Shown: piece by piece, positions 7,446 to 61,163 of the stretch | Layout: every line of letters begins with the position of its first letter | How positions within the stretch are numbered: position 1 is the first letter of the stretch | NCBI RefSeq assembly: GCF_000715075.1 | Contig: NC_134082.1 | Coordinates: 61,591,466-61,655,465 of the forward strand | DNA length: 64,000 nucleotides | Direction of reading: 5' to 3' | Source: Nicotiana tabacum | Taxonomy: Eukaryota; Streptophyta; Magnoliopsida; Solanales; Solanaceae | Notes under the pieces: model-generated | The model's input: the letters and a program-made list of their open reading frames with translations, nothing else | Told to the model about the DNA's origin: nothing | Database searches by the model: none | Program-made: the position numbers and the translations under genes

Positions 7446-7510
7446 GAACTACGCCGGTTTGATTCTCACCGGATATGAGATACGTAGGCAACCCCCATCG
7501 GGTTCAACCC
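7446..7510 (+). other. Structured motif, copy A (upstream of ORF1)
   Basis: It begins GAACTACG. Helix 1: CTACG (7449-7453) with CGTAG (7483-7487). Helix 2 inside it: TCTCA (7464-7468) with TGAGA (7476-7480), 7-nt loop. Helix 3: AACCC (7490-7494) with GGGTT (7500-7504), 5-nt loop. It lies 300 bases before the ORF1 start. Its closest relative is copy H in the other element. Confidence 0.8.
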
Positions 7511-7549
7511 CACCTTTTTGCTAAGATAGCCAAAACCAATAAACAAAAA

Positions 7550-7730
7550 AAAATATGTGTGTCAAAATAAGTCAGGTGATGCCGTTTTGTCATAAATAGC
7601 CGAATGTTCCCAAAAGGGACACCGGAAGGCTGACTTTGCATAAACAACCACCTTTGGGTCATGTTTAGGATTCTTGTCCGATTGACCCACACAGCCTTAA
7701 AATCTTCATCCCCGAAGTGCTGAAAGGCCG
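7550..7730 (+). other. Conserved noncoding leader block
   Basis: The region contains a TGGGTCA ... TGACCCA inverted repeat and a TTCCC-AAAA-GGGA small hairpin, and precedes ORF1. The same block occurs, duplicated, on the minus strand of the second element (about 60527-60687 and 60747-60901), where no ORF1 follows. Conservation without coding suggests a cis function such as packaging or dimerisation; that is inference. Confidence 0.6.
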
Positions 7731-7809
7731 TGTTCGAAAATCTGATCTTTTTTTTTTTGAAAAGTAGTCAAAATATTATTATTTTTTTTTTAAAAAAGGG
7801 TCACCATAA

Positions 7810-9867
7810 ATGTGCAGGATGAGCACGATGCAAAATGAACACTTTTCGATAATGACTAAAATCCCTGTCAAGTTACGGCTATGGTGGAATGATCTAGGTG
7901 CTAAAGGACAAGATGAGGTCAAGAAATATCTGAAAGGTCTCGTGGGTTTATTGGAAATCCAGCCTCGGGGAGATATCATAAGAGCTTTGGTTACCTACTG
8001 GGACCCGGCACACAATGTTTTCCACTTCTCCGATTTTGAACTCACCCCGACTCTGGAAGAAATGGCTGGGTACATCGGAAATGCTGAACTTCCGTTAAGG
8101 CAAAAATACCTGGTCACCCCAAGAGCTGTCACGGTACATCGATTCCTGGACTCACTAAAAATACCCAGGACGGTCCGCAACCCAGATTTGGCCGCCGGTT
8201 TTTGTAATCCATGCTTCATATACGACAGGTATGGTCATGTAGGAGGATTCAACAATCCGATTAACAAGCTATGCAGCAAAGGTAGTCGTCAGAAGTGGGA
8301 TAAGCACAGACGGGTGGCTTTCATGATAACATTTTTGGGCCTTTTAATATTTCCAAGGAAAGATGAGAATATTGATCTGAAAATATCTGGGATAGTCAGT
8401 ACTTTGCTCACTCAAAACGATAGCACTCTCGCGCCTATGGTGGTATCTGATATCTTTCGAGCTCTCACAGCTTGCAAAGCCGGAGGGAATTTCTTCGAAG
8501 GTTGTAACTTGCTGCTACAAATGTGGATGATTGAACATCTCTGCCATCGTTCCGAGCTATTGAGCCATGGTTCCTCGGAGAAAACCTGCATAGAAGAATT
8601 TTACATGAGAACCAAAGAGATCAGTCTGCCCAAAGGAGTTATGGCATGGACCTCATTCTTTCAAGCTCTTACAGTCAGCCAAATACAGTGGACACTGGGA
8701 TGGTTGACTGTTGATGAGGTCATATATATGCCAGCAACTAAAACTCATTTCCTACTGATGGGACTTAGGAGCATTCAACCTTACGCGCCCTACCGAGTCT
8801 TGAGACAGCTCGGAAGATACCAGATAGTACCACACGAGGAGGATCTTAGTGCTCAAACAATTGAGATAAGTCCTGACGGACAATTTCCTGAAGCAAAAAT
8901 CCGCCAGATCTGGAATGAATGTCAATATTTGAAAGCAGATACTTGTGTGCGGGATCGGGCCAAAAGTGAGATGGCACCAGGCTACCTTGCATGGTACAGA
9001 AGAGAACTCGGACATGAAAGGCCGGCTAAAAGACCCCACATCCTGAATTTCGCCGAGTCGTCGCAAAAGCAGTGGGATTGGTTGGCGAAAGAAAGAGGCT
9101 ATTGTGCCGAAATCAGCAGGTTAAAGCAACAAGTGGAAAGCCTGAAATATGAGCACAACGTGCAAGTTGCTACCGATCTGGGAGAGCGGAACGGGTTGAC
9201 TCAGGAAAACGAAATGCTCAGAGTCCAGATCAAACAGATGAGGATGGATGTTGATAAACAACCAAGGAGTCGATCAGACGAGCAGTTGATAAAAAGGCTG
9301 AAAAGTGAAGTCAGGGAATGGCGAGATGGTTTAGAGAAGTCTGAAAACATCACGGCGGAGCTCAGGGCACAGTGGGATACAAGAGCAGATAAGCATTGCC
9401 GATACTTGAATCAATTGAAAGGCGACCACGAGAAAACTGTTGCCAAAATGAAGAGAGAGATGGCTACACTTGAGTTTAAAGTAGTTAATCAGGCCGAGGA
9501 TTTCCAAATTGAGAGCAGATACTGTTACGACTTGTTAGCCCAGATGAATTTAGAAGTGCGGCAACTAAAGAATCAGCATATATAGGATTCTCAGGTATTC
9601 AAGATGTGTAGCGATCAGATAAAACGCCTGCTCATAGAGAAGAAGCAAACCGGAGATAAGATCAGGACCATTGCCCATGCCATCATCAGGCGGTGTCTAC
9701 GGTGTGAGAACATGACCAGCGTTACCGTTCTCTCGGCAGTGATGGGTTATGTCAAGCAAACCATGCACGAGTTGGAACAACTTGAAAGAGATCTCACACC
9801 TAGGACCGCGGCAAGGCCGAACGATGCCCCGCGGGCACCAATTTTCAAAACCATAATGTACTCATAA
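7810..9867 (+). pseudogene. Ogre ORF1 protein (upstream of gag), one in-frame stop
   Basis: The frame runs 685 codons from ATG 7810 and is broken once by TAG at 9583-9585, after which the same frame stays open to TAA at 9865-9867. Ogre elements carry an extra ORF of unknown function before gag, and this matches it in place and size. The N-terminal half (about residues 10-370) resembles the plant mobile-domain type of region, with FSDFELTPTLEEMAGYIG near residue 75 and tryptophan-rich stretches. Residues about 420-600 are rich in Glu, Lys, Gln and Leu and look like a coiled coil. A second ATG at 7819 is an alternative start. Identification rests on position and recognised phrases, with no alignment run. 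Confidence 0.8.
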
Positions 9868-10037
9868 GTCGAGTCTGTATCTTAACATTTTCTGTCTGTT
9901 TTTTCGCATCAGGGTGTTTTAGTCTGTTTGAGTCTAGGTTTATCTTTCAAGGTTTGCTTTTCCTTTTGCAAAATGTAGGTTGTAATAGACCATTTCAGCA
10001 ATAAAAGGTGTGCTTCTTCTTACACTCACCTGTTTTT

Positions 10038-10102
10038 GAACTACGTAATGATCTGATTCACGTGACATCGTGATACGTAGGTAATCCTCATCGGATCCGG
10101 TC
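10038..10102 (+). other. Structured motif, copy B (between ORF1 and gag)
   Basis: Helix 1: CTACG (10041-10045) with CGTAG (10076-10080). Helix 2: TCACG (10058-10062) with CGTGA (10069-10073), 6-nt loop. Helix 3: ATCC (10084-10087) with GGAT (10093-10096), loop TCATC. It starts 170 bases after the ORF1 stop. Stem bases differ from copy A but pair. Closest relative: copy G. Confidence 0.8.
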
Positions 10103-10229
10103 GCATTTTAACCACAAAAATTGAAAACAGTAACAAAAGGAGAAATAAAGAAAAATAAAAAAAACATAATAAAAAATAATAAAAAAAAGAGAAAAAAAGG
10201 GAATCCTAAAAAGGAAGCTGGAATGACGC

Positions 10230-13200
10230 ATGCTTTCGTCGCAAACATGTAGGAATCCACTTAACTGTATAGGTGCATCATGCCCCAACGTGAGATTGCC
10301 TATCTGTTATTTGTTTCGAATTAACCGTTCATTTGTCGTTGAGTTCCTCCAGGTTTTTGGAAAAGGCGGTTGGTTTGGTGAAAGTCTGGCCTCGCACTCA
10401 TACTTCACGAGGTCGAAAGGGAGTGTTCAATTACCTGTTATTAAGTCAGGAGGCGGTGCTCACACTTATTTCACAAGGTCAAAAAGAAGCATAGAAATGT
10501 CTGCAGAAATTCCTTTACCAACAGTTCCTGTTTCCGAGGAGAGTTCGATCTCGGCCGTCCTCACGCCCGAGTCCGCCACTGCAGAGGAAAATAGAATCAT
10601 GTGGCTCCGCATGTTAGAAATGTTGGATGACTGGAATAACGGAAAAGAGCCTCCAAGTGTCGTCCCTGGATTTCCTGAGTTATTCTCCAGAACAAGCGGG
10701 ACTTCTAATATCCCCATAAGCTATCCCGCTACCCCATTCGGATACCCAGCCATTTCGGCCTTCTCTGCTGGATCGCCCTCTGATTCTCATCCCCGGATAT
10801 CAACAACAGATGCAAACACAAACATCTTTACTGCACCACCCTGTCCGATCGCGGCACAACCTGCTACGTACAAGCCAAATTTTGACTCATCTTCGTTTAC
10901 ATTCCAAGCACCATCTTTCTCAATGGAACCAACTCGGTTCGTCACGAGCACTCACCCTCCACAACCTCAGTGCGAGTTTGCACCTATGCAGGATCAGAAC
11001 CCCAAAATGGCTGAACAAGAAGAGATGGCCAAAAGAATGAGAAGCCTTGAGCAGAGTTTGAAGAATATGCAAGGTTTGAGCGGATAGAAGAGCGTCTCCT
11101 ACACCGATCTATGCATGTTCCCTCACGTGCACCTACCAGTGGGTTTCAAGACCCCAAAGTTTGAGAAGTACGACGGGCACGGTGACCCCATTGCTCATCT
11201 CAAGAAATATTGCAACCAATTGCGGGGAGCCGGCGGAAAAGAGGAATTGCTAATGGCATATTTCGGGGAAAGTCTGGTAGGAATAGCCTCGGAATGGTAC
11301 ATGGACCAGGACATATCCCGGTGGCATATATGGGATGATCTCGCTAGAGATTTTGTGAGACAATTCCAGTATAACATCGACATTGCACCAGACCGAAATT
11401 CTCTGTCAAACTTGAAGAAGAAACCTTCAGAAAGCTTCAGAGAATATGCTATTAAGTGGCGCGAACAGGCGTCAAGGGTGAAGCCTCCCATGGACGAAAT
11501 AGAAATAGTCACCACTTTTCTCCAGGCTCAGGAGTCCGACTATTTCCAAAACATGATCTCAGTCACGGGAAAGCCTTTCGCAGAAGCGATTAAGATTGGA
11601 GAGATGGTGGAGAACGGTCTGAAAACGGGTAGAATATTTAGTCAGGCAGCCATAAGGGCAACCTCCCAAGCCGTCCAAAGCGGGTCCGGAGGAATGGCGA
11701 GAGGAAAGAAAAAGGAGGAAACGACCATGGCAGCATCTGAAGCAAGGGAATATCGTAATCCCAGGCCCCGTTTTCCATAAAGGACCCCACAACACTACTA
11801 CCCCCACCAAAACATGGCATATGCTCCTCAACCCTACATGGTCATGAACACCCAGCCTTATGTCCATCTGCCACAGCAAGCCAACCGAGGCCAAGCTCCA
11901 CCTCCCAAAAATCAGCCTCCCTACCGCAACCACTATAGCCCACAACCTCCGCAAAATAACTCCCGCCCTCAGGAGCCACCTAGAAGGCGGACTTTCATGC
12001 CCATCGGTGAGCCATACTCTACTTTGTTCCCGAAGCTAGTCCAGTTGGGTTTCCTGCAGCCGGTCTCTCAGACAAGGCACAATCCGGCATCACCTTCTTA
12101 CAAAGCCGGTGTTAGATGCGCCTATCATTCAGGAGCGGAAGGGCACGATACAAATGACTGCTGGGCTTTGAGAAGGGTAGTCGAGAATTTAATAGAGCAA
12201 GGAAAAATAGTGCTAAGGGACGAGAAGGTCCCAAATGTGACTAACAATCCATTACCTGCTCACAATAATGGGCCGCTGATCGGAATGATTTGCGAACACA
12301 AAGAATTTGACCCTGCTTTGAAAGCTATAATCGCCATTGTCGACGCAGGGAAAAAGCCTGAAATAGCCCAGAAACCAGAAAAAAGGGAAAAGGCCAGTAC
12401 TGTAAAGTGCGAGCCAGAAAAGAAGGTGGAGAAGAAGGCGGTGCCTGTGAATAATGGAGTTCTTTACATCCCACGAGGTCGAGCAGAGAAGCCGCAGAGC
12501 TTCGAGGTCAAAAGGGCAAAACCTATGTACGTACCAAAGGGGGCCTATGTGGTCCGGGGGACGATTCAACCACCTCGGCTGAATGAGCCAATGGTTATCG
12601 GACGCGTGCCACAAAAGCCGATGACAAACCCGTCCACAGTACCGTGGAACTATCAGAGGACGTTGGTAACGTACAAAGGTAAAGAAGTCACGGGAGAACT
12701 TCCAGAAAATACTTTCATTGGAAGGTATTCGAACACCCAAAATCTAAACAACGCCATACGGAGACGCTTCCCACCAAAGAAGCCTATAAGCATTGAAGAA
12801 GTGGAAGTTTTCTTCCAACAGATGAAAATGCCGGATTACAAAGTGGTAGATCAACTGCGCAAGTGCCCCGAGCAAGTGTCCATGCTATCATTGCTGATGA
12901 GGTCGGCCGAGCATCAAAAGATCTTACTCAAGACCCTGAACGAAGCATACGTGCCAGTTGAAACCTCAGTCGAACAACTGGAACGAATGACAGAAAGGTT
13001 CTTCGCCGTTAACCAGGTCTCTTTCAGCAAGAACGATTTACCCCCAGAGGGAGCGGCACACAACAAAGCCTTGCATCTAACAGTTAAATGCGAAGACTAC
13101 TACGTCAAGCGGGTAATGTTGGATGGGGGTTCAGGTGTTGACATTTGTCCGCTCTCCACGCTACAGAGAATGGAAATTGGGACCGGAAGAATCCGCCCCA

Positions 13201-13979
13201 ATAATGTCTGCGTAAGGGCTTTTGACGGCATCAAGAGAGACACCCTTGGGGAAATAGACTTGGCTTTGACCATAGGGCCAGTAGAGTTTGAAGTAACTTT
13301 CCAAGTGTTTGACATGGATACGTCCTACAATTTTCTCCTCGGCAGACCTTGGATTCATGCGGCAGGGGTTGTACCTTCCACTCTTCATCAAATGGTGAAG
13401 TTTGAGCACGAAGACCGGGAAATTGTGGTCCACAGAGAAGATGAGCAGTCTATTTATCGGGACCCATTCATCCCATATCTTGAACCAAGGGAAGGGAGCG
13501 AGCACACGGTCTACCAGGCTTTCGAAATTGTGTTAGCAAAGCAGCATGAAGAGGGAAGACCTTGCCCCCAACCTTTCGCCTCGGTTATAGTGGCTAAAGA
13601 GATGATCCGGCACGAATTCAAGCCAGGGAAAGGGCTCGGACGAACATTGCAAGGAATAACGGAACCCATCACCTTGCCTTCCGCCAAGAAACTTTTTGGG
13701 ATAGGTTTTCAACCCACTCCAGAAGATGAAGAATGGGCAAAGAAGAGGAAGAATGGGGGTTGGAAACTGCCTCGGCCACTACCGGATTTATATTAAACCT
13801 TCGTCAGACCAAGATACACTGAAGAAGAAGACGATGAGGTTTTCACGGCTGAGGAAATCGAGGAGATATGTGGGGCAATGAGAGAAATGCTCTATGAGGC
13901 TCACATGGTTCAACCAGGAGAAGGCACCAGCACCGCCGAGATGATATATATGGGGCCAAACGCCAAACTTCGAAACTAG
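10230..13979 (+). pseudogene. Ogre gag-protease polyprotein, three in-frame stops
   Basis: One frame of 1,250 codons is interrupted by TAG 11085, TAA 11778 and TAA 13794 and closes at TAG 13977. The gag core lies at about 11115-11650 (KFEKYDGHGDPIAHLKKY, SEWYMDQ, SFREYAIKWREQASRV). A zinc-knuckle-like C-x2-H-x5-H-x4-C follows near 12115 (CAYHSGAEGHDTNDC). The retroviral-type aspartic protease is at about 13090-13340 with active-site MLDGGSGVDICPLSTL and later FLLGRPWIH; the DGGSG form is usual in this lineage. Near 13610 a glycine-rich KPGKGLGRTLQG stretch resembles a shortened G-patch. The true gag start is uncertain; upstream sequence is poorly conserved up to SYFTRSKG near 10400. Confidence 0.9.
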
Positions 13980-14225: not shown

Positions 14226-15883
14226 TTATAATAATGCGGCTTTAAATATGACATGCTTGCGGACTTCACGCCCAGATCACAACGAGCTATTTAATTGTGA
14301 AATAATGAACCCAGAACCAGAATATGATGAAGAAGAGGCTTTTAGGGAAATAAACCGAGAGTTGGAACATTTTGAGAATAAACCTAAGCCAAATATGAAT
14401 GACACCGAACCGGTTAATTTAGGAACTCCTGAAGAAATCCGGGAGACCAAAATAAGCATTCACACGAACAAGAAAACGCGAGACGCGATAATTCAACTTC
14501 CTTTTGAATTTAAAGATGTGTTTGCTTGGTCGTACGATGACATGCCAGGACTAGGTGTTGATCTAGTGGTTCATAAATTACCAATTCATCCTGATTGTCC
14601 TCCAGTTCAACAAAAGCAAAGAAAGTTCAAAACTGAGGTCAGTGATAAAATTAAAGAGGAGATCACCAAGCAGCTAAAAACGGGAGTGATTCGGGTAGTC
14701 CAGTATACAACATGGTTGGCGAACGTAGTTCCAGTACCGAAAAAAGATGGGAAGACTCAGGTATGTGTGGATTATCGAGATCTGAATAGGGCGAGTTCCA
14801 AAGACAATTTCCCATTGCCCAACATCCACATCCTTGTTGATAATTGCGCCAAACATGAGATCCAGTCTTTCGTAGATTGTTACGCTGGGTATCATCAGGT
14901 GTTGATGGATGAAGAAGACGCCGAGAAGACTGCCTTCACCACACCTTGGTGCAGTTACTGTTATCGGGTTATGCCATTTGGTCTGAAGAATGCTGGGGCA
15001 ACTTACATGAGAGCCATGACTGCCATTTTTCATGACATGATGCATCAAGAAATAGAGGTGTACGTGGACGATGTGATAATCAAATCCAGGACGCAGGATA
15101 ATCACATCCAAGACTTGAGGAAGTTCTTCGAGAGACTGAGGAAGTACGACTTGAAGCTGAACCCAGCTAAATGTGCTTTTGGAGTCCCATCGGGCAAGCT
15201 TTTGGGCTTCATAGTGAGCAGAAGAGGTATCGAATTAGATCCAACAAAGATAAAATCTATCAGGGATCTACCTCCCCCAAGAACGAAGAAAGACGTGATG
15301 AGTTTGTTGGGCATGTTGAACTATATCAGTCGATTCATTGCCCAGCTAACTAGCACGTGTGAGCCCATATTTAAGCTATTGAGGAAAGATGCGGCGATCA
15401 AATGGACGGCTGAGTGTCAAGAAGCTTTTGACAAAATTAAAGAATATCTTTCAAATCCCCCAGTTTTGGTCCCACCAGAGCCAGAAAGACCACTGTTCTT
15501 GTATCTGACAGTCTTGGAAAATTCTTTCGGTTGTGTCCTCGGGCAACATGACATAACCGGAAAGAAAGAACAAGCAATCTACTACTTGAGCAAGAAATTC
15601 ACCAGCTACGAGGCCAAGTACACTCTGCTGGAAAGAACATGTTAGCGCTCTGACGTGGGTTGCTCAAAAGCTAAGGCATTATCTCCAAGCTCACACTACT
15701 TTCCTCATAAGCAGGCTAGATCCTTTGAAGTATATATTTCAGAAACCAATGCCTACTGGAAGACTGGCCAAGTGGCAAATCTTGCTTACTGAATTTGACA
15801 TAATCTATGTCACCCGCACGGCAATGAAAGCCCAGGCGCTAGCAGATCATTTGGCCGAAAATCCAGTCGATGAGGAATACTAG
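14226..15883 (+). pseudogene. Ogre reverse transcriptase and first RNase H (frameshift and stop)
   Basis: The frame from 14248 to 15645 encodes a Ty3/gypsy reverse transcriptase: primer-grip region VPVPKKDGKTQVCVDYRDLN, the middle motif FVDCYAGYHQV, MPFGLKNAGATY and the catalytic YVDDVIIKS near 15058. It copies element RNA into DNA in virus-like particles. A connection and RNase H segment follows (LFLYLTVLENSFGCVLGQHD, IYYLSKKFTSYEAKYTLLE). At 15643-15645 an apparent extra base creates TAG; coding continues in the next frame to TAG at 15881-15883. Both breaks would separate RT from integrase. The catalytic aspartates of RT itself are present. Confidence 0.9.
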
Positions 15884-15886
15884 ACA

Positions 15887-16330
15887 TTGAGTACCTATTT
15901 TCCAGATGAAGAAATAAACACCGTAGAAGTGGTCTCGGAGAACGCTCATGTTTGGAAGATGTTCTTTGACGGAGCCGTAAACGCCAAAGGTGTAGGAATC
16001 GGGGCAATTTTGATTTTGCCTTCCGGTCAGCATTATCCCGCCACAGCTAGACTGCGTTTCTTTTGCACAAACAATACAGCTGAGTATGAAGCCTGCATCA
16101 TGGGCATGCATATGGCGATTGATCAGGATGTCGAAGACTTACTGATTATGGGAGATTCTGACCTGATTATCCGGCAAGCCTAAGGTGAATGGGAAACTCG
16201 GGCTTATCCCTTACCGACATCACGTGGAGGATCTCGGCAAGCGTTTTAAATCAATAGAGTTCAGGTATATCCCGCGGTGTCACAATGAACTAGCGGATGC
16301 ACTTGCCACCTTAGCTTCGATGCTACCCTA
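15887..16330 (+). pseudogene. Second (archaeal-type) RNase H of the Ogre-like element
   Basis: Motifs in order: MFFDGAVNAKGVGIGAIL (first Asp), NNTAEYEACIMG (Glu), MGDSDLIIRQ (Asp), and HNELADALA (last Asp) after a break. A second RNase H after the degenerating first one is typical of the Tat/Ogre lineage, where it is thought to take over RNA degradation. TAA at 16181-16183 and a small out-of-frame deletion near 16200 split it, the last motif being in the frame that continues into integrase. All four acidic positions can still be recognised. Confidence 0.85.
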
Positions 16331-16399
16331 CCCAGGCAACGCCTATGTCGATCCCTTAGAAATCCAAATTAGGGAGAGACACGGTTACTGTAACGTAAT

Positions 16400-17672
16400 C
16401 GAGGCAGGATCGTGCATACAGCCATGGTACCACGATATCAAGAGGTTCTTGAAGACACAAGAATACCCCGAGCATGCTACTGGAGATCAAAAGAGAACCA
16501 TTAGGCGGCATGCAAGTGGTTTCTTTTTTAGCGGTGAGTTGTTGTATAAGAGGACCCCGGACCTCAATCTACTAAGATGTGTTGACGCCGAGGAGGCAAG
16601 AAGGATCATGCACGAAGTACACGCAGGAGTGTGCGGACCTCACATGAACGGGTATGTTTTAGCAAAGAAAATCCTTTGAGCAGGTTATTACTGGATAACC
16701 ATGGAGAAGGACTGCTTTAGCTTCGTTCGGAAGTGTCATCAGTGTCAGGTGCACGGTGATTTGATTCATGCACCTCCCACGGAATTGCATCCCATGTCTG
16801 CGCCTTGGCTATTTGTTGCCTAGGGCATGGACGTCATTGGTCCGATCGAGCCGAAGGCCTCAAATGGACATAGATTTATACTGGTTGCCATCGACTACTT
16901 CACAAAATGGGTAGAGGCTGTCACTCTCAAGTCGATCACTAAAAAAACGGTAGTGGATTTTGTACATTCAAATCTTATCTGTCGTTTCGGTATTCCTGCA
17001 ACTATCATCACAGATAACGCAACAAACCTGAATAGTCACTTGATGGGAGATGTATGCGAGCAATTCAAAATAACGCATAGGAATTCTACTCCTTATTGGC
17101 CCAAGGCCAATGGCGATGTAGAAGCAGCAAACAAGAACATCAAGAAGATTTTGTGGAAGACGATCCAGAGTTCCCGACAATGGCATGAACAGCTACCGTT
17201 TGCATTGTTGGGATATCGCACTACGGTACGCACGTCAGTAGGGGCAACCCCTTATCTTTTGGTTTATGGGACCGAGGCTGTAATACCAGTAGAGGTAGAA
17301 ATTCCTTCACTTCGAACCATTGTCGAAGCAGAAATCGAAGACAGCGAGTGGGTTAAAACTCGATTGGAGTAGTTGACTCTGATTGACGAGAAACGAATGG
17401 CTGTGGTTTGTCACGGGCAGCTGTACCAACGAAGAATGGCCCGTGTTTATAACAAGAAAGTCCGACCCAGGAATTTCGAAGTGGGTCAACTGGTACTGAG
17501 GCGCATTCTGCCACATCACCAGGAAGCGAAAGGGAAGTTTGCTCCAAACTGGAAAGGCCCATTCATCATCAGGAAGATATTGCCGAAAGGAGCATTGTAC
17601 CTAGGTGATATTGAAGGAAATGATCCCGAAACAGCAGTGAATGCGGATGCAGTCAAAAGATACTATGTCTGA
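16400..17672 (+). pseudogene. Ogre integrase, three in-frame stops
   Basis: This is one frame (shared with the end of the second RNase H) with stops at TGA 16677, TAG 16821 and TAG 17370, ending at TGA 17670-17672. The HHCC zinc finger is HEVHAGVCGPHMNG, then KCHQCQ near 16731. The DDE core has GMDVIGPI (Asp), IITDNATNL (Asp) and NGDVEAANK (Glu). The C-terminal part (FEVGQLVLRRI, GKFAPNWKGPF) is the GPY/F-type module that binds DNA. Integrase joins the element DNA to the chromosome. Each stop falls where the family has Trp or Gln, so single transitions (TGG to TGA or TAG, CAG to TAG) explain them. Confidence 0.9.
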
Positions 17673-17865: not shown

Positions 17866-17928
17866 GAACTATGTCTGACTTGATTCCGAAAGGATACGTA
17901 GGCAGCCTCTCTCTGAGGTTCAGTCACA
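17866..17928 (+). other. Structured motif, copy C (after integrase)
   Basis: Helix 1: CTATG (17869-17873) with CGTAG (17897-17901), one G-U pair. Helix 2: TCC with GGA closing a GAAA tetraloop (17888-17891). Helix 3: GCCTC (17905-17909) with GAGGT (17915-17919), loop TCTCT. It starts about 190 bases after the integrase stop. Closest relative: copy F. Confidence 0.75.
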
Positions 17929-18980: not shown

Positions 18981-19336
18981 CATTGAAAATCTCCAAGTTG
19001 AATCTGGAAATGCAAGCTTGAGCAGTCTAAAAGGTTTTCGCCATTTGAATCCAATCAATGGCAGACTTTCTCAACAGAAATAAGGACGCAACAAAGCAAC
19101 TGGAACAATCAAGGTCACCGAACCAACCGCCATTTCCGAGCTAACAATTGTTCTTTGTTTGAAAAGTTAAAACAGGTATGATCCAAGACAACCATGCAAG
19201 AAGTAGGTGTCGCCCAAAGAAGAAAGTACGTGAGTGCAAGAAACAGTTGGGCAATAAGGAATCCACTCGAAAGGGAAGTTTCCACGAAATTCTCTTTTAT
19301 ATTTTTATTAAAAACAAGAAAAACTCAAAAAAAAAA

Positions 19337-21590: not shown

Positions 21591-21662
21591 GAACTACATT
21601 GACCTGATTCCTGTTTAGCCCAGGATATGTAGGAAATCTTTGAAGCGAAGATTCGGTCAAAT
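21591..21662 (+). other. Structured motif, copy D (before the polypurine tract)
   Basis: Helix 1: CTACA (21594-21598) with TGTAG (21628-21632), a compensatory change from CTACG/CGTAG. Helix 2: TCCTG (21609-21613) with CAGGA (21621-21625), loop TTTAGCC. Helix 3: AATCTT (21635-21640) with AAGATT (21648-21653), 7-nt loop. Closest relative: copy E. Confidence 0.8.
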
Positions 21663-24700: not shown

Positions 24701-25659
24701 AATCCTGTTTAAATGAGTTAATTTAAATTTAGCTTAAGGAGTGTTTGGAGTAAGTGTAGCGTTTCATCAATCACGTATGTAATTCTTTTTATCAAATTAA
24801 AAGCATGTTCCATGAGGTACAGCATTCTTCACCTTGTAAATAATTAATCATATAACTAATAAGAGGTCGGGATTAGCTAAGCATGCAATTTAATTAGCAT
24901 ACATTTTCTTTCTTCTATTTTTAGAGACGAACATAATAGAAATGTAGTCACTGTAGGTTTATCCTTTCAAACAATGAGACGAGCCTCGCTAAATAAAAAA
25001 ATGCAAATTGTGGGGCCCTCAATAATTGATCACAATAAATACTCAGAATTTTGGAACGACTGTTTAATGAATTTCACTGTCTTCCCCAAAGATAATAACG
25101 CGTTTAGACTCTTTAAGGCGCGACTTAATTAAATTACATTCTTAAATTCGGGTGCGCATTTATGTGACCCAAATTCAAATCTCAACGAAGTCGAAATGTG
25201 TTAACAACTACGGGTGCATTGATTGTGACGTGGTTCGAGATGCATTTTCACTACGTTGCAATTCTATAAAAATAAATGATAATAATAAAAGCGGTTTTAA
25301 ATTCAATAAAAGCACATAAGTCACAACATGTATTTAAATCAGATATTTAGTCATTATAACAATTTAAGCGACCGTGCTAGAACTACGGGATTCGAGGGTG
25401 CCTAACACCTTCCCTCGGGTCAACAGAATTCCTTACTTAGAATTTCTGGTTCGCAGACTTCATTTGGAAAAGTCGAAAATTTCCTCGATTTGGGATTCAA
25501 GATAAACCGGTGACTTGGGACACCAAAAGCCAAACCTTTCCCAAGTGGCGACTCTGAATTGAATAAATAATCTCATTTCGAATATTGTCACTTAAATTGG
25601 AAAAACTCCCTCGCGCATTTATCCCTTCGGGGCCGGACGCGCAAAAAGGTGGTGTGACA
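21774..25659 (+). repeat. 3' LTR of the Ogre-like element
   Basis: It begins TGTGAGCACGTG and ends GGTGTGACA, and keeps the inverted repeat (22244-22278), TATA boxes (22485 and 23775) and hairpin (22925-22972) of the 5' copy. The last bases read AAAAAGGTGGTGTGACA instead of AAAAAGGAGGTGTGACA. Confidence 0.95.
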
Positions 25660-38480: not shown

Positions 38481-38947
38481 ATGATAATGTTGAAATGCAT
38501 CTCAGAAAGAATCAAATCGCGGAATTCATGTAACCCCTAAAATTTCTTGAGAAATATGTTGTTGCATTTAGATAGTAAAAGCGTGTGAGCATCATTTGAA
38601 AAAGTTGCTTTTGCATATAGTGTGGACAATGTATGTGAACACAAGAAGAGAAAGCAGGAGGACGGACATATAACTTCCTGACTACTATTAGATATGGATC
38701 ACATGGTTATTATACATAAGACCATAGGAATACTCTTTTATTCAAAACAATACCCTCTTGTAAGTTAAAAAACCAGTACCAATCAGATATCCATTCTTTT
38801 TAATAAGTAATAATCCCGGAACGGTTTACATGCATCAAATACTCCTAAATCTACATGTTGATGTACAACATAAAAGATATGAATGAGAATACAATATACC
38901 ACAGCTATACATGCACCATCTTTACGTTGCCAGAGACTCGAAGCATG
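38481..38947. other. Intergenic DNA downstream of the PLD gene
   Basis: No feature recognised apart from what may be distal 3' UTR of the PLD gene. Confidence 0.4.
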
Positions 38948-39042
38948 ACAATTCTTGAATTAATGCTCGTTATCCTTGCATTGGGGGCGTATGCTAATCT
39001 TCTTTATATCATTCCAATTTAATCGTACTTTCTCAAAGAGAC
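38948..39042 (-). pseudogene. U6 snRNA-like pseudogene
   Basis: Read on the minus strand it starts GTCTCTTTGAGAAAG and continues with AAATTGGAATGATA, AAGAAGATTAGCAT and GCAAGGATAAC. These line up in order with the 5' stem, the ACAGAGA region (here ATAAAGA) and the central domain of plant U6. The central block AGAAGATTAGCAT is identical; the ACAGAGA box and 5' stem are altered. No USE/TATA promoter pair was seen upstream. It lies just after the PLD stop codon on the same strand, so it is probably transcribed within the PLD 3' UTR. Confidence 0.75.
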
Positions 39043-50701: not shown

Positions 50702-50709
50702 GATGTAAA

Positions 50710-53553: not shown

Positions 53554-55666
53554 TGTAACGATCTGACCAGTCATTTTGAGCTCTAGCACGTCGTTCGATA
53601 ATTTGAGGTCATGATCAGCTTCACTTCATTTATTATGACTTGTACACATGGTCAGAATTGAATTCCAGGAAGTTCAGAGTTGATTTGAAAAGAGAATTCT
53701 CATTTCGGAAGCTTTAAGTTGAAAGAATCGACTAAGATTGGATTTTTGAGTAAACGACCTCGGAATCGAGATTTGGAGGTTCCAGCAAGTTCGTATGGTA
53801 ATTTTTGACTTGGGTGTATGTCCGAATCGATTTTTGGATGGCCCGGGAGCGTTTCGGCGCCTATTGTGAAAGTTAGCATTTTTGGAAGAATTTCATAAGT
53901 TTGGGTTAAAGTGACTTTCAATGTTATCAATGTCCGTTTGGGATTCCGAGTCTGGGAATAGCTTCGTATGGTGATTCTGGTATTGGGAGCATGATCGGAA
54001 GTGAATTCGGAGGCCCGTATGTCATTTTGGAGTCATTTGGCTAAAGATAGAAATTTGAAGGTTTTGAGAAGTTTGACCGGAAATGGACTTTTTGATATCG
54101 GGTTTGAATCTGATTCCGGAAGTTGAAGTAGGTCCGTAATGTCAAATATGACTTGTGTGCAAAATGTGAGGTCAATCGGACGTAGTTTGGGATTATCGAA
54201 TTTTGTAGTTTCAAGTTCCTAAAGTTTGGATTGAAGGGTGATTCGTGATTTTAGCATGGTTTTGATGTGATTTGAAGGTTCTACTAAGTTCGTATAGTGT
54301 TTTAGGATTAGTTGGTATGTTTGGTTGAGGTCCCGAGGCCTCGGGTGTGTTTCAGATGCTCAATGGGTCATTTTTGGGCTGAGAGAAGTGGCAGATTTTG
54401 CTGGTTTTTCTGTTGCAGATATTTGTTCTTCGCGTCCGTGAAGTGGAGCTCGCGTTCGCGAAGAGGAGCTGGGTCAGGAAGAGGAATTTTTCTTCGCGTT
54501 CTCGAAGGGGGAGCTCGAGTTCACGAAGGTTAGCTAGTGGAAACATCGCGAACGCGAGGAACTGAGCGTGTTCGCGAAGAGGAAAATATAGAACAACTGG
54601 GACCTAGGAAATTACCCTTCGCGTTCGCGAATAGGGGGTCGTGTTTGTGAAGGTCCTAGCAGCTAAAACTATGCGTTCGCAAGACGGGTCTCGCGTTCGC
54701 AAAAGGGAATTGTTGGAAAATATTTTTGGCCTTCGTGAACACGAGGGCAGTGCCGCGCTCGCGAAGAAGGGCGGACCTGGGCTGGGCAGAATGTATTAAA
54801 AGCGGGGTTTGAGTTCATTTCACCCATTTTCACTTTGGTTAGGCGATTTTAGAGCCTTTGAAGAGGGGGATTTCATCATCAAACAACAGGTAAGTTAATT
54901 CCACCCCTTGTAAGTCAAATACATGGATTTTATAAGGTTTTAAATATGAAAATCAGTAGAATTTGTGGGTTTTTAGTAGAAGAACTAGAAAATGATATTT
55001 TTGGATTTTTACCACGAATTTGGGCATGAAATTGAGAGCAAATTATATATTTGAGTTCGTGAGGTTATGGGTGAAGTTTATCTTCGAAATTTTTTGGAAT
55101 CCGGGCCCGGGGGCAATTTTGTTAACTTTTCGAGCAGAGTTGAGAATTTATATAAATTGAATTGCTATGAGTATTAGGGTATATTTTCATTGGTTTGCCC
55201 ATTATTTGGCTAGTTTTGGAGCGTTGGGGCATCGATTTGACTCGTCGGAAGGGCTTGGAAGCCGGTTTTGGAACTTTAGAGCAAGGTGAGTCTCCTTTCT
55301 AACCTTGTAAGAGGGAATTGTCCGTATAGGATAATTAATTGGATATGTGCTTCTATTTGTGGGGGCTATGTACGCATGAGGTGACGAGAGTCCGTGCGTA
55401 GCTACTATTATGCTTAAGTCCGGTAATCTAGGACCCAAAAGCATTTTACTTGTAATATTTGCAATCTTGGTGACAATTTAAAATGCTTAAAACATATCGA
55501 ACGTATAAATGAATTTCTAAATGACTAGACATCGTTTCTTGATTTTTAAAAGGGAAATTGCCTTTTCTTGAATAATTGCTCCTTGATGAATTCTTAATGA
55601 CTGTTTGAATGTGTTTTATCTATTGTGGAACGGGCCGAACGCCTCGGTAGGTTAAATAGATGCATC
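53554..55666 (+). repeat. LTR-like repeat copy in sense orientation, cut by the second Ogre-type element
   Basis: It starts TGTAACGATCTGACC. At 54420-54780 it is rich in TTCGCGTTCGCGAAG-type palindromic words, followed by a region with splice-like and A/T-rich sequence. It runs without an end up to 55666, where the minus-strand Ogre-type LTR begins; its 3' remainder should lie beyond the window. GCATC at 55662-55666 is the expected target duplication of that insertion. Confidence 0.7.
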
Positions 55667-57710
55667 TGTCACACCTCCTTTTTCCGCCCCCGCAAGGGGT
55701 AAAGGAGTTTTTCCAATTAAAGGACAATCGAAACGGGATTTGTTTATTTGTTTCAGAGTCGCCACTTGGCAGATTTAGAGTGTCCCAAGTCACCAATTTA
55801 ATCCTGAATCGAGGAAAAGAATGACTCTGTATTACAGTCTGCGAACCAGAAATCCGGATAAGGAATTCTGTTAACCCAGGAGAAGGTGTTAGGCATTCCC
55901 GAGTTCCGTGGTTCTAGCACGGTCGCTCAACTATCATATTCGGCTTGTTTATCTGATTTTATACAATTATGCGCTCATGTGCAAGTTTTAACTCTTTACC
56001 GCTTTTATTATTATATTTTAAAAGATTGTGAACATCGTTTAAAAATATGTCTTTGGATTGCGTCACATGAAATGCACCCGCAATCTGGAACACATTTTTA
56101 TTCAATGTTTTGGGATTTGGATTTGGGTCGCATGAAATGCACACCCGAGTTTAAGAAGGTAAGATTATTAAAATGCGCGCCTAAAGCAGTTAGCATATTT
56201 ATTATTTTTGGGTAAGGTCGTGGAGTTCGCTAAACGGCCGATCCCGAGTTCTAAGTAATTAACACATACATTTTGTGAGGGCCCCGCAATCTGTGCATTT
56301 TATTTGGCGAGGCTCGTCTCATTTTTTATTTAAAAGGATAAACCTATAGTGACTACATTTTTTCTATTAAGTTCGACTCTAAAATAAAAGAAAATCCTTC
56401 AATTAATTACATGCTAAAAAATACGTAACTTATTAGTTATTAGTTTACGGCTAATGCAAATGGAAAATTGCAATCGAGTTTGTACAAAGAGAGATTGCTT
56501 TCGTTCTATATTCTATTATTTAATAACACTAGAACATGAGATTGACACACAATAATATCAAAACAAATTAACTATTCTTTGATTAATTTAAACTAACATT
56601 ATTAGATGAAGGAGTTATTATACATATGTGACCCCATTACTTATTAATCAATCAACTACATTTTTATACAAAGAAAGAAAAATTCTATTCAAACACAAAT
56701 ATAAACAGAAGGAATTCAACAGGAACAAAGCCTGGTTAATACTTCATTTCGCCTCAAGCCGAGAATGTACAAATGTGTACCTGGAAATGGCAGAAGAAAA
56801 GAAGCAGGAGTCAGCAGCAGTAATAACACAGCAACGCAACAGCAACCCACAACAGCAATTCGAACCAGATTCAAGGCCCAGAAAACTTTGAAGAAAACCC
56901 AAACAAACTCAATAGAACAAACCCAAAAGTTTGTAAAGAAAAACTAAACAGCAACAACCCATGCGTGTATTAAACCTGAAACTAAACTCGTTTCTCACTT
57001 TGTTTTTGTTTTCTCTTTTTAAACTCTACCACACTCTCTTCAGATTTTTAGAATGTATTCCTCTCTCAAAAATATTCTCCCCAAAAATCCTCTAAGTTCT
57101 TCCAAGTCTAAGTCCTTTTTTTTTTGTGAAATGTAGGAGAGGGAGATAGGGGTATTGGGTATTTGGGTTATGGACTGGGTCGACCCAGTTTGAAGTGGAT
57201 CGGGTCATGGGGAAGGTTGGGTATATTTTGGGCATGTGGCTTGAAATTGAAGAAGAGGCCCAATTCCGATTTTCTTTATATTTTTGCTCTCTTTTCTTCT
57301 TTTATTTTTCTAAAACTAAATTCTAAAAATCCTTAAATTATCATATAGAACTAAATTAATTTATAAAAGCGCAAATTAACTCCCAATAACAATTAACACA
57401 CAATTAAGTAATAATTAAGCATAAAATTGTACAATTGGACATTAAATGCTAAAAATGCAAAAGATGCCTATTTTTGTAATTTTTATTTTTGTAAAAAAAA
57501 CTTAATTACTAACAATTGTAAACTTAAATCCTAAACGCAAATGCGACGTATTTTTTATATTTTTTATTAATTTATAAAATAAACATGCGCAGGCAAATGC
57601 AAACAATACAAGTAACACAAAAATTCTCAAAATTGCACACCAAGGAAAATCGTTTTATTTTGAATTTTTTGGGAGTAATTCTTTCATAGGGCAAAAATCA
57701 CGTGCTTACA
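55667..57710 (-). repeat. 3' LTR of the second Ogre-type element
   Basis: The complement starts TGTAAGCACGTGATTTTTGC and ends GGAGGTGTGACA; 2,044 bp. It shares its 3' end with the large LTR (ACCGTGCTAGAACCACGG) but is about half the length. Confidence 0.92.
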
Positions 57711-57724
57711 GCTGCTCCTCTTTG
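57711..57724 (-). other. Polypurine tract of the second element
   Basis: The complement reads AAAGAGGAGCAGC immediately before the LTR start. Confidence 0.75.
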
Positions 57725-57811
57725 CCCGAAGACACGAAGGGTTTTCGTGCAAAGATAAAGTGAGCGATTTTGCCCATCCGAGTACTCCGTGTGAAGCATT
57801 TTTTGAAAAAG

Positions 57812-57883
57812 ATTTAACTGAACCTTTGCTTCAAAGGTTTCCTACATATCCCTGGCTAGAAGGGAATCAGGTTAATGTAGTTC
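57812..57883 (-). other. Structured motif, copy E (before the polypurine tract)
   Basis: Helix 1: CTACA with TGTAG. Helix 2: TCCCT with AGGGA, loop TCTAGCC. Helix 3: AACCTTT with AAAGGTT, 5-nt loop. Same place and same helix 1 variant as copy D. Confidence 0.8.
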
Positions 57884-57899
57884 GGGAAGTTTTTGGTAG

Positions 57900-58715
57900 C
57901 TGGGACTACCATGGGACTGCAATGTTACTGCTGTTGCATGCAATGTTACTGCAATGTTACTGCAATTGGAAAGCTGATGGCATATTTTGAAGTCATTTCT
58001 CACTTGTTCTGACCAAACAGACTCTACTGGGGAATTTTTCTATGAAAGAAGAAAGATAAACAAAACGAAAAGGGACCGAATAAAAAACAAAGGAAAAAGA
58101 TGACTCTTTAACAAGAGAAACTATAAATAAAAGCCTATCAAACGCAAATACCGACTCTAATAATCATGACATGCACATGTGGCATATCCTCTGCCGTCAA
58201 CCATCTTTCAAGATCTTCACTTGGCGATTCTCCATTTGATTCTCAATCTTATTCGACTTGTAGTGCCCGAAGGGTTTTTACTATCAAGCCTCTCTCATTT
58301 TGGTTTTTCTCTCAGCTTTCATCGCCTTATGGTGTCCGTAAAGATTTTCACCGATAAGACTTTCTCATTTGTATCACTTTCCAGCTGGGGATTTGGAGTG
58401 TTTCCGGTATGATTCTCTCTACTGTGGATTAGAGTCCTTTCTGCTGTGGAACAGAGTGTTATGTTCACCGGTAAGACTCTCATTTGTCTGACTTGGCATC
58501 TTTTGAAGACTGATCAGAAGGTCTTTCTTTGGACCGTAATGTGGGGTTTTGGATAGGCTAGAAAGAAAGGGTTTTAAAGGCTCAAAAACAAATCAATTTG
58601 GGGTTCAAAATTATAACTTTCGGAACCATATTTGTTTACAACAAGCGCAACCCTTGCCCCAGTTTCTTGCTTGGGATTATTATTATTATTTCTTTTTTTA
58701 AAATTTTTTGTTACA
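57900..58715 (-). other. 3' region of the second element between motifs E and F
   Basis: Noncoding. 58170-58500 carries degenerate units with ATGAGA and GGTGAAAAT-type words matching 18111-18287 of the large element. A short TGCAATGTTACTGC repeat occurs at 57920-57963. Confidence 0.6.
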
Positions 58716-58776
58716 CTATGACCGAGTCGTGAGGTGCTTACGTATCCTCTTTGAGGAATCAAGTCAAACGTAGTTC
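58716..58776 (-). other. Structured motif, copy F
   Basis: Helix 1: TACG with CGTA (the outermost pair is lost). Helix 2: TCCTC with GAGGA over an AAA loop. Helix 3 is weak (ACC with GGT). This is the least well preserved copy and corresponds to copy C. Confidence 0.65.
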
Positions 58777-58877
58777 CTAATTCCTCTTTTTTTTTCATTT
58801 ACCTATTATTTTCTTTTCTTTTCTTTCTTTTCATCATTTCTCCTTTCTCTTTTGTCGTTTTGTTGTTTTCTTTTCTT

Positions 58878-58909
<32 letters not shown>

Positions 58910-60039
58910 CTTTACCTATCATGCTTGTGTTTTCTAGTCGTTGCTACTGATTCCGAACGAGGGGTACGAAAGAAAGATAAATAAGGCTCAAAAGGGGTAA
59001 CGAAGGATAAAGTGTTTAGGTAGCAGAACAAAATGCCTTCGTCATTCCAGTCTTCAAAACATGCCAAGTGCAAACAACACAATTAAACAAAGATTTGTAG
59101 CCTCTTCTAATGGTGCTGGACTTGACAATTATATTCACACATTTGCTTTTTCATTTGTCATTTCTAAAGCACCGTTGTGCGACACTCTCACTCTCATTAT
59201 CATGAACGACCCTCATGCCAATTTGGCGAATCTTGCTTTTAATGGTTTTCTTTGTGTTTTACTTGCCCTAGTTCCACATGACTTGAGCTCCGAATAATCT
59301 CAAACCGTCCTTATTTTCTTTAAATGTTCTGATCACCTTTCCGGGGTTTTATGATTAACTTTTAAGATTAGGCCCAAACTGTGTGCGCATGTCATGTCAC
59401 TAGAATCGGCGCTGAATAAAAATGATAAAAGGACTAAACAAAAAGATGACTAGAAATAATAAAAGACCGGATTTGCTTTAGACTAATGGTGAAATGGTTT
59501 GAATAACAAAACAAACAAAACAAACCAGAATAAAATCCTAAAACAAACCTGGACAAAACTACACAAACCGCTATGACAAAAAATGGAAAGATAAGAGGAT
59601 TTGACACAATACAACATCTGTATTACAATCATAAGAATAATCCGGACAACAGAAATGACAACAAAATAAGCCACCAAAAGCTTCTCTCTTGCTAACCAAG
59701 GAACGGAGCGTCCTCTCACTTTATCAAAACTGACATTTTAGCCACTGATCCTCGCATTAGTATTGCCAAGACCATTACCAACTTCAATATCATCAACCTT
59801 AGTCAACAAGTTCCCAATAGGACTCGAGTGCTTCTGTCATCAGGCCTGATCCCCGCAAAGTGTGCTTCTGGATCTTGTATTTCCGGCTTACCACAAACCA
59901 ACCACCTTAACCTTCTTTGTGATTCAAAACAAAACATGTTAGAATGGACTCAGTCGGTCCTCAATATTAACAACATCTTTTTTCCCTTCTTTTTTTTTCT
60001 TTTTCTTTTTTTTTCGATTTTTTTTCTTTTTTTTTGTTG
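58777..60039 (-). other. Internal region of the second element where gag-pol would be expected
   Basis: Only 1.26 kb instead of about 7.8 kb in the large element. It is noncoding, with CT-rich tracts at 58800-58915 and 59980-60040. I find no gag, RT or integrase phrase in any frame. Confidence 0.65.
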
Positions 60040-60104
60040 TGGTCGAATCTTATGGAGATTGCCTACGTATCATGACCCAGCATGAATCAGACCTTGCGTA
60101 GTTC
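60040..60104 (-). other. Structured motif, copy G
   Basis: Helix 1: CTACG with CGTAG. Helix 2: TCATG with CATGA, 6-nt loop. Helix 3: AATCT with AGATT, loop CCATA. Corresponds to copy B. Confidence 0.8.
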
Positions 60105-60526
60105 GGACAAAATGAAAGGTAACAACAATGAAACATTTTTTTTCTTTATCAATTTTCATAATAAAACAAACTGGGTTTCAAAGGTTTAAAGATGACCTAC
60201 AAACTCGAAAATCAAACAACCCACATATTCTAATCAAAAGATTTACAAACTCAAAAACAAAAGGCCAGCTCCCTTTCTCCGTGTGACAAATGCAACCAAA
60301 TGGTTATTTTGCAAATGTGGCCCCTTCCAAATTTCACATGAATTTTGAGGCCGGGGAGGATTATTTTATGTCACTTTACAAACTTGTCCATTCTTTTACG
60401 AAAATAGCCTTTCGACAACTGAAAGATACTCTAAGGCTATTTCGGCAAGAACGGTTTAAGACGCGGCCGAAGCTGGCTCGGCTTATTTTTGACTAAAAAT
60501 CCAAACGGTATTCACCTGACCGCTGA

Positions 60527-60901
60527 CTCGGGGACGAAGATTTTTAAGGCTGTGTGGGTCAACTGTACCAAAATCCTAAAAAAATGACCCAAGGTGGCTG
60601 TTTATACAAAGTCAGCCCTCCGGCGTCCCTTTCGGGAACATTCGGCTATTTTTGACAAAAAATAGCATCACCCGACTTATTTATGACTCTTTTTATCGTT
60701 TTTCAAAATAGAAAACTCAATATTGCAAACACGGCCTTTCAACGCCTCGGGGACGAAGATTTTTAAGGTTGTGTGGGTCAACTGGACCAAATCTTAAACA
60801 TGACCCAAAAGGTGGCTGTTTATGCAAAGTCAGCCTTCCGGCGTCCCTTTCGGGAACATTCAGCTATGTCTTGACAAAACAGCGTCACCCACTTCTTTAT
60901 G
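60527..60901 (-). repeat. Duplicated leader block (about 160-bp copies, 220-bp period)
   Basis: CTCGGGGACGAAGATTTTTA begins copies at about 60527 and 60747, both continuing through GTGTGGGTCAACTG, AAAGTCAGCC and GGCGTCCCTTTCGGGAACAT. The large element has one copy at 7550-7730. Confidence 0.85.
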
Positions 60902-60915
60902 ATGAAATTAAAATT

Positions 60916-60918
<3 letters not shown>

Positions 60919-60997
<79 letters not shown>
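60919..60997. repeat. (TA)n microsatellite, about 79 bp
   Basis: Uninterrupted TA dinucleotides next to the second leader-block copy. Confidence 0.95.
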
Positions 60998-61000
<3 letters not shown>

Positions 61001-61102
61001 CTATTTTTTGCAAAAGGGGAGGTGAGACATCACCCGACTTATTTATGACATGTTTTTTTTGTTTATTTATTTGTTTTTGGCTATTTTAGCAAAAGGGGAG
61101 GT

Positions 61103-61163
61103 TGGACCCGATGAAGGTTGCCTACGTATCTCACATCCGGTGAGAATCAAACCCGCGTAGTTC
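61103..61163 (-). other. Structured motif, copy H
   Basis: Helix 1: CTACG with CGTAG. Helix 2: TCTCA with TGAGA, 7-nt loop CCGGATG. Helix 3: ACCT with GGGT (one G-U pair), loop TCATC. Nearly identical to copy A. Confidence 0.8.

Follow-up and report, generated by a model that had tools for sequence, protein, structure and literature searches.

Results

Two Ogre-type elements in the window

The window, i.e. the whole 64,000-nt stretch analyzed here, is from Nicotiana tabacum (GCF_000715075.1, NC_134082.1:61,591,466-61,655,465, forward strand) and contains two LTR retrotransposons with the following features:

2718-25659, plus strand: element 1, LTRs 97.7% identical
2718..6584, plus strand: 5' LTR of element 1, 97.7% identical to 21774-25659
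7810..9585, plus strand: ORF1 of element 1 (DUF7745 / plant mobile domain)
10230..13796, plus strand: gag-pro region of element 1, several separate ORFs, with Retrotrans_gag at 11115-11780
14248..17372, plus strand: RT, RNase H and integrase region of element 1, several separate ORFs
21774..25659, plus strand: 3' LTR of element 1, from the LTR comparison
55666..64000, minus strand: element 2, cut at the window end; LTR pieces 62683-64000 and 55666-56982, 97.0% identical

Ogre/Tat elements are large and have long LTRs, an ORF1 that precedes gag and the domain order RT-RNase H-integrase. Element 1 has these hallmarks; element 2 is assigned by LTR and leader similarity only. Element 2 contains no ORF of at least 120 aa and no match at E<=1e-5 to seven ORFs of element 1 and nonetheless carries four copies of the motif described below. 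This lack of coding sequence refers to element 2 as tested and not to its relatives, because three short relatives elsewhere (L014, L019 and L033) carry weak PRO matches of 30-34% identity.

The motif folds into a four-helix pseudoknot

The initial annotation had described eight copies of a three-helix motif, and all eight were confirmed in position and strand. The pattern GATTC-N4-34-GATAYGTARG matches exactly these eight places in the window (0.01 expected in shuffles). A covariance model, the kind of check that had been proposed, re-finds 8/8 copies at 53.8-80.2 bits and nothing else in the window at E<=10; the copies match the model by construction because it was built from these eight together with a copy in a hAT transposon (see below). 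The eight copies are real and not independent, as they fall into four positional classes (A/H, B/G, C/F and D/E) in two elements.

Helices 1-3 (P1, P2 and P3) pair as described, in 97.8%, 100% and 88.6% of cells, respectively, in nine copies with the hAT copy included. Alignment also bears out the switch of P1 from CTACG/CGTAG to CTACA/TGTAG in copies D and E, and the loss of one P1 pair and most of P3 in copy F. The three-helix description is incomplete in that it missed a fourth, crossing helix, P4, in which the four bases 5' of UGAUUC pair with four bases 3' of helix 3. As P1 and P4 cross, the fold, read in the element sense, is that of an H-type pseudoknot in which two loops each contain a hairpin. 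The order of strands is 5' GAA, P1a (5 nt), 2-4 nt, P4a (4 nt), UGAU, hairpin P2, UA, P1b, 2 nt (usually GC), hairpin P3, one base (usually C) and P4b; the module can equally be drawn as a three-way junction of P4, P2 and P3, with the linker between P2 and P3 clamped by the adjacent upstream strand. It spans 57-68 nt in the window copies and 80 nt in the hAT copy. The window copies are:

7446..7509, plus strand: copy A, element 1, 5' of ORF1; GAA, P1 7449-7453/7483-7487, P4 7456-7459/7506-7509, P2 7464-7468/7476-7480, P3 7490-7494/7500-7504
10038..10102, plus strand: copy B, element 1, spacer between ORF1 and gag; P1 10041-10045/10076-10080, P4 10050-10053/10099-10102, P2 10058-10062/10069-10073, P3 10083-10087/10093-10097
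17866..17925, plus strand: copy C, element 1, 3' of pol; P1 17869-17873/17897-17901, P4 17877-17880/17922-17925, P2 UCC-GAAA-GGA, P3 17904-17908/17916-17920
21591..21658, plus strand: copy D, element 1, copy end 115 nt from the 3' LTR; P1 21594-21598/21628-21632 (CUACA/UGUAG), P4 21601-21604/21655-21658, P2 21609-21613/21621-21625, P3 21635-21639/21649-21653
57816..57883, minus strand: copy E, element 2, D position; P1 57880-57876/57846-57842, P4 57873-57870/57819-57816 (one C.A mismatch), P2 57865-57861/57853-57849, P3 57839-57835/57825-57821
58720..58776, minus strand: copy F, element 2, C position; P4 58765-58762/58723-58720 and P2 58757-58753/58749-58745 retained, P1 minus one pair, P3 mostly gone
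60041..60104, minus strand: copy G, element 2, B position; P1 60101-60097/60067-60063, P4 60093-60090/60044-60041, P2 60085-60081/60074-60070, P3 60060-60056/60050-60046
61100..61163, minus strand: copy H, element 2, A position; P1 61160-61156/61126-61122, P4 61153-61150/61103-61100, P2 61145-61141/61133-61129, P3 61119-61115/61109-61105

Several unpaired letters are conserved, i.e. GAA in 48/52 copies, the single C in 50/52, and UGAU and UA in 51/52 and 52/52, the latter two being partly fixed by the search pattern. Most of the additional copies in alignments A3 and A4 came from patterns in which TGATTC and GATA(C/T)GTAGG are set, and the invariance of these letters is therefore partly a selection effect; P1a, GAA, P3, the single C and P4 were left free in the patterns used to collect copies. 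In none of the nine copies did nested folding produce all four helices at once. Its z-scores were -0.23 to 0.98 for six copies, and D, E and the hAT copy had -1.58, -2.15 and -2.40; this is weak evidence either way because a fold limited to nested pairs is unable to show a pseudoknot.

Evidence for selection on the pairing

In 92 distinct copies, 93.5% of 1712 helix cells are paired, compared to 82.1% in column shuffles and at most 41.4% with the partner strand slid. P4, which was absent from the model used for search and alignment, is paired in 95.4% of its cells over the same 92 copies. In a covariation test with tree-aware null simulation (our own script, not R-scape), 8/10 of the best-covarying column pairs are helix pairs, whereas the null maximum was 2 in 800 runs; the two non-helix pairs among the ten best are columns 2-53 and 10-37. 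Seven of the 19 helix pairs reach E<0.05 over 19 tests, with at least one pair in every helix. P1 is represented by one pair, columns 10-45, with E=0.045 over 19 tests and 0.17 with 52 copies. When all 2628 column pairs are taken as the test set no single pair falls below 0.05 (best 0.059), and the strength of the test therefore lies in the joint pattern. Covariation is found in each helix over 19 tests and in no individual pair over all 2628. The proposal of the initial annotation that RNA structure is under selection gains support from the larger set of copies, by cell pairing and by the joint pattern. In total, these data support that the pairing is kept by selection, outside the transposon ORFs.

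The copies are related and their numbers are high, as would be the case for an ordinary repeat without RNA function that spread by duplication and hitch-hiking and in which pairing reflects descent or an effect at the DNA level; the result over all 2628 pairs would also fit. We consider such a repeat extremely unlikely given the excess of helix pairs among the ten best, the covariation of P4 even though this helix was unmodelled, and the uniform orientation of the motif described next.

Copies occupy fixed positions in the element sense

The motif is in the element sense in 51/51 rows (44 distinct places) and in 36/36 loci resembling the window elements, some of which overlap. The A position lies 145-370 nt upstream of the first ORF1 ATG (3/3 measurable loci), the B position 155-453 nt downstream of the ORF1 stop (5/5 loci) and the C position 30-509 nt past the first stop that follows the integrase match in frame (11/11 loci). 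The frame of the integrase match stops early in element 1 and in some other loci. In the N. tabacum genome, the pattern has 92,911 matches, compared to 8 in controls.

The location of A upstream of ORF1 and of B upstream of gag would suit a translation element for internal entry or reinitiation at these two genes. That explanation is very improbable, as the last ORF ends upstream of C, D and the hAT copy and element 2 retains the A and B positions with the ORFs of element 1 undetected.

A copy in a hAT transposon

The assignment of the motif to Ogre-type elements holds for both elements in the window; outside the window, one copy is in a hAT transposon. This copy lies 52 nt 3' of the stop codon of a plant hAT transposase on L003, a chimeric MAG contig. 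The transposase has its closest named relatives in Dipteronia; Xanthoceras and Acer rank lower among the matches. The other side of the contig has bacterial-looking ORFs, named by eye, the last of which is an ssb-like ORF that is seemingly truncated at its start. A bacterial origin of the copy was rejected since the motif side holds the plant transposase ORF. The link to hAT elements comes from this single contig, and the motif is absent from 30/30 hAT loci scanned in the N. tabacum genome (of 69 scored matches).

The 94 collected copies score 43.0-80.2 bits with the covariance model. Hits of the pattern to L001, L002, L004 and 27 virus contigs (L073-L099) score at most 20.5 bits with the model (L001, E=0.0018 in that search) and were dismissed as chance. 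The first strict pattern gave 0 matches over viral contigs, an RT search of these contigs found no relative, and a hairpin pattern modelled on L006 had 0 matches in the N. tabacum genome.

In line with the initial annotation, which named no described family for this pattern, no match to Rfam 15 in the window scores at or above the gathering threshold, and the 16 matches with E<=10 all lie outside the copies. The four Rfam 15 matches at E<=10 to L003 are all below gathering; one of these (14.6 bits, opposite strand) touches the 5' edge of the motif. Among the matches listed, the open-access literature has no described family; subscription papers may hold one. The core motif letters searched as text in this literature returned 11 papers, one of them on a plant virus and none with plant transposons as the subject of its title. 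For enod40 RNA, followed as a lead, the main text of PMC10578108 contains the word "pseudoknot" 0 times.

Discussion

Four copies per element, all in sense and retained in element 2, would fit a signal for packaging or dimerization of genomic RNA that Gag would bind. On the other hand, a hAT DNA transposon has no RNA genome and carries the motif (one contig), and we regard this function as improbable. More broadly, the observations argue (i) that the motif would work in cis on its own transcript, given the four copies in element 2, where coding sequence of element 1 went undetected, (ii) that its role may not be specific to reverse transcription, because the hAT copy lies just after the transposase stop, and (iii) that the role would be at the RNA level, because of the uniform sense orientation and the fixed positions around ORFs.

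We tentatively favor, at less than even confidence, that the motif is a candidate cis-acting RNA-protection element. The compact fold would form a mechanical roadblock to XRN-type 5'-3' exonucleases and shield the RNA downstream of every copy, and in that way broken or decapped giant transcripts would retain usable modules and 3' ends. Several observations speak against protection: Copy A precedes ORF1 and a decapped product starting there would be capless, a PK2 of the flaviviral type was not found above shuffles in 52 copies, nested folding does not bring the four helices together, short relatives of element 2 carry weak PRO matches, and the hAT link is one contig in the face of the motif-free N. 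tabacum hAT loci.

Flaviviral class 1 xrRNAs resist Xrn1, and their PK1 joins the 5' strand to the junction. As excerpts of PMC8571300 describe, flaviviral xrRNAs occur in tandem and form a three-way junction with two interwoven pseudoknots; the motif shares with class 1 the three-way junction, the hairpins, a strand-crossing pseudoknot and tandem copies, and differs in that its crossing helix has 5 bp compared to 1-2 bp for PK1. It also differs in PK2, the pairing of a loop with downstream sequence: between the P3 loop and downstream bases, at least 4 bp were found in 9/52 copies versus 12.8 in shuffles and at least 5 bp in 5/52 versus 5.3. Plant-virus xrRNAs have conserved L1 and L2B letters and a pseudoknot strand located in a hairpin loop, whereas this strand lies between P1 and P2 in the motif. 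Compared by description, the motif resembles the dianthovirus/polerovirus type in its short pseudoknot, its intergenic and 3' UTR placement and its occurrence in plant RNAs; these xrRNAs are pseudoknot-dependent and sit in intergenic regions and 3' UTRs (PMC6299227, in excerpt). Evade ENE, one of the triple-helix elements that act as structured cis RNAs of plant transposons, stabilizes RNA (PMC12501189, in excerpt), and the motif is likewise a structured cis RNA in plant transposons. An ENE clamps the poly(A) tail with its internal loop and the motif is a pseudoknot instead; alignments read by eye have no paired U-rich tracts of the ENE type in the motif copies.

Possible as well, if doubtful, is a protein-bound cis element, similar to a constitutive transport element, at which a putative host RNA-binding protein aids long transposon RNA in nuclear export, stability or silencing escape. 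Four copies per element, their retention in element 2 and the copy in a DNA transposon agree with this, and the unpaired GAA, UGAU, UA and C could be contacts, with the caveat for UGAU and UA given above. However, many protein sites need less than a fixed pseudoknot geometry, and the motif holds such a geometry.

HDV-like ribozymes have the strand order P1-P2-P3-P1'-P4-P2', a P1 of 7 bp with self-cleavage at its first base, a second pseudoknot (P1.1) in which the loop of the inner hairpin pairs with bases that follow P1, and a catalytic core to which the single-stranded J4/2 belongs. The motif has the identical strand order and a nested pseudoknot, and ribozyme self-cleavage of transposon RNA close to the 5' edge of every copy has to be considered. 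However, P1 of the motif has 5 bp, the one base from P3 to P4b in the alignment fitted to the model leaves no room for J4/2, the partner CC for P1.1 is present in only 15/52 P2 loops (any YY in 25/52; the loop of copy C is GAAA), the GAA bases 5' of P1 are conserved, and four cuts would destroy the genomic RNA. Even though HDV-like ribozymes form a nested double pseudoknot (PMC4908430) and are known in retrotransposons (PMC4908430; PMC4035085; both in excerpt), we find self-cleavage distinctly improbable.

Returning to the protection element, it is conceivable, albeit unlikely in this full form, that the motif represents a pseudoknotted RNA class not yet filed, which the pattern matches ~93,000 times in a single plant genome. 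Such a class would confer portable transcript protection, as a roadblock to exonucleases or by equivalent means, and its members would have passed between retrotransposons and DNA transposons throughout the flowering plants. A pseudoknot that covaries, sits at fixed places in the giant retrotransposons of one plant and also occurs in one or more DNA transposons of another would make a highly abundant, unnamed structured RNA module. If protective, it would help to explain the survival of 20-kb element transcripts and could serve as a compact stabilizer for plant mRNAs. The function of the motif is directly testable: it is small, and its pairs are defined, as are the mutations to disrupt and restore them.

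Sources of copies

Apart from the hAT copy, all non-window rows are from contig C1 of one genome (the window is from contig C3). Rows that overlap with other loci were omitted, i.e. L019, L026 and L028 from alignment A3 and additionally L013, L015 and L035 from A4. Of 40 short stretches (L100-L139), counted without element assignment, 40/40 have a covariance-model match.

Eight motif copies and a fourth helix

The eight copies of a roughly 65-nt RNA-like motif that the initial annotation placed in two Ogre-type elements, A-D in element 1 and E-H in element 2, were located correctly in position and strand. A core-pattern search of the 64-kb window returned these eight and no others (0.01 expected), and a covariance model built from them and the hAT copy described below found the same eight again with no further match at E≤10. 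As annotated, helices 1-3 (P1-P3) pair, P1 switches from CTACG/CGTAG to CTACA/TGTAG in copies D and E, and copy F has decayed; the annotated number of helices is too low, as a fourth helix, P4, had been missed. Its 5′ strand is the four bases immediately 5′ of TGATTC and its 3′ strand four bases beyond P3 and one intervening base. Since the former lies within P1 and the latter outside it, P1 and P4 make a pseudoknot.

Motif copies (5′ end, strand) and their P4 pairing
A, 7446, plus: GGTT/AACC
B, 10038, plus: GATC/GGTC
C, 17866, plus: GACT/AGTC
D, 21591, plus: GACC/GGTC
E, 57883, minus: AACC/AGTT, one mismatch
F, 58776, minus: GACT/GGTC
G, 60104, minus: GGTC/GACC
H, 61163, minus: GGTT/AACC
hAT copy, outside the window: CCTT/AAGG

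Because the covariance model leaves P4 out, newly found copies test its pairing independently: 96.6% of 208 P4 cells are paired in 52 distinct copies and 95.4% in 92, with two-sided changes in all four P4 pairs.

Covariation

Of the 1712 cells that make up all helices in the set of 92, 93.5% are paired vs 82.1% in shuffles, and a slid-partner control gives 17.3-41.4%. Neither pairs with two-sided change (12 vs 11.6 in shuffles) nor further pair types (35 vs 33.0; 44 of 500 shuffles reach 35) are in excess in this set. Because the copies are related, we added a tree-aware null in which a custom script approximating R-scape lets the columns evolve independently of one another on a FastTree tree (60 replicates in a first run, then 600 runs for 52 copies and 800 for 92). 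By this approximation, seven of the 19 helix pairs reach E<0.05 over 19 tests in each of the two sets. With all 2628 column pairs as the test set, no single pair passes 0.05 in the 92 copies (best 0.059). With 52 copies, three of the seven are in P4 and no P1 pair reaches E<0.05 (best 0.17).

Helix pairs with E<0.05 over 19 tests, 92 copies
P1: 10-45 (0.045)
P2: 25-40, 26-39, 27-38
P3: 54-82
P4: 18-86, 16-89

P4 pair 17-87 narrowly misses (0.075), and P1 is almost invariant, its covariation depending on one pair. The ten top-scoring column pairs in the 92 copies comprise eight helix pairs together with 2-53 and 10-37; the 800 null runs place at most two helix pairs there.

Abundance and placement in host elements

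In the genome (3,996,098,646 bases, 700 contigs, window included), TGATTC-N4-18-GATACGTAGG has 64,898 pattern matches vs 7 for the reversed control, and CTGATTC-N6-17-GATATGTAGG has 28,013 vs 1. All 70 fetched pattern matches given to the covariance model match it: 40 of 40 short stretches and 30 TGATTC-pattern loci, 27 directly and three by overlap with L018 or L027, where their copies are already represented. The 36 loci examined, some overlapping, all resemble the window elements in protein or DNA, and the motif follows the element's orientation in 51 of 51 rows (44 distinct places).

Element 1 and its repeats
2718-6584 and 21774-25659: LTRs, 97.7% identical
3842-3909 and 22915-22982: inverted repeats in the LTRs, with a weak MIR5565 match on both strands, far under the gathering score
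18685-18963: degenerate array of ~27-nt AATCCCCACAG-type units
19318-20984: tandem array with a repeat length of 43/44 nt, lying between motif copies C and D; its 31-nt core was counted 38 times

An ORF1 bearing a plant mobile domain is encoded by element 1, along with gag, RT-RNase H and integrase. In fetched relatives the motif recurs at corresponding sites: (i) class A lies 145-370 nt upstream of the first ORF1 ATG (3 loci), (ii) class B 155-453 nt downstream of the ORF1 stop (5 loci), and (iii) class C 30-509 nt past the next in-frame stop 3′ of integrase (11 loci). Copy D of element 1 stops 115 nt short of the 3′ LTR; at locus L071, D starts at 3239 and similarity to the window LTR start begins at 3419. 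Element 2, on the minus strand and running past the window end, keeps four copies, has no ORF of at least 120 aa, and is matched by none of seven element 1 ORFs compared with it at E≤1e-5; similar short elements elsewhere (L014, L019, L033) do have weak PRO matches.

A copy beside a hAT transposase

A pattern scan of genome contigs gave three hits, two of which were rejected as chance. The third, on the MAG contig JAFUBK010000065.1 (labelled Bacilli), is a full copy with P1, P2, a 7-bp P3 and P4. The contig looks like a plant-bacterium chimera: ORFs on one side read as bacterial, and the other side carries a plant hAT transposase ORF (Dimer_Tnp_hAT, 1.8e-21). Among named proteins, those of Dipteronia (Sapindaceae) are nearest to this transposase, and it is 97% identical to an ENA protein that carries no name. 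The motif starts 52 nt 3′ of the hAT stop codon. It is missing from 30 hAT loci of the tobacco genome (30 of 69 scored matches), which are only 28-32% identical to the contig's transposase, and the hAT link thus consists of a single example on one contig.

Putative function

That the motif lies outside ORFs and only in sense, persists in element 2 and also sits just past the ORF of a DNA transposon argues that it acts in cis in RNA, tied neither to one protein nor to reverse transcription. No Rfam 15 match in the window reaches its gathering score; the hAT locus has nothing above gathering, and no description of the motif appears among the open-access literature matches listed, as far as their accessible text goes. 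HDV-like ribozymes have the same strand order, but a defining feature of theirs was looked for in the motif and not found. Drawn as a three-way junction, the motif resembles flaviviral xrRNAs, but again a defining feature was not found on testing. We tentatively favor a role in which the motif would protect RNA through a roadblock-type fold. Alternatively, and almost as probably in our view, it might be a protein-bound export or stability element.

Other features of the window

370-717: LTR fragment, ~76% identical to the element 2 LTR; 510-681 within it ~85% identical to the element 1 LTR
2260-2658, 26637-27487 and 33627-35364: fragments of reverse transcriptase, RNase H and zf-RVT, which we take to be LINE-like
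38939-39041, minus strand: U6-like sequence and possible pseudogene, 43.4 bits (gathering score 44)
47432-48421, minus strand: ORF with a C2 domain
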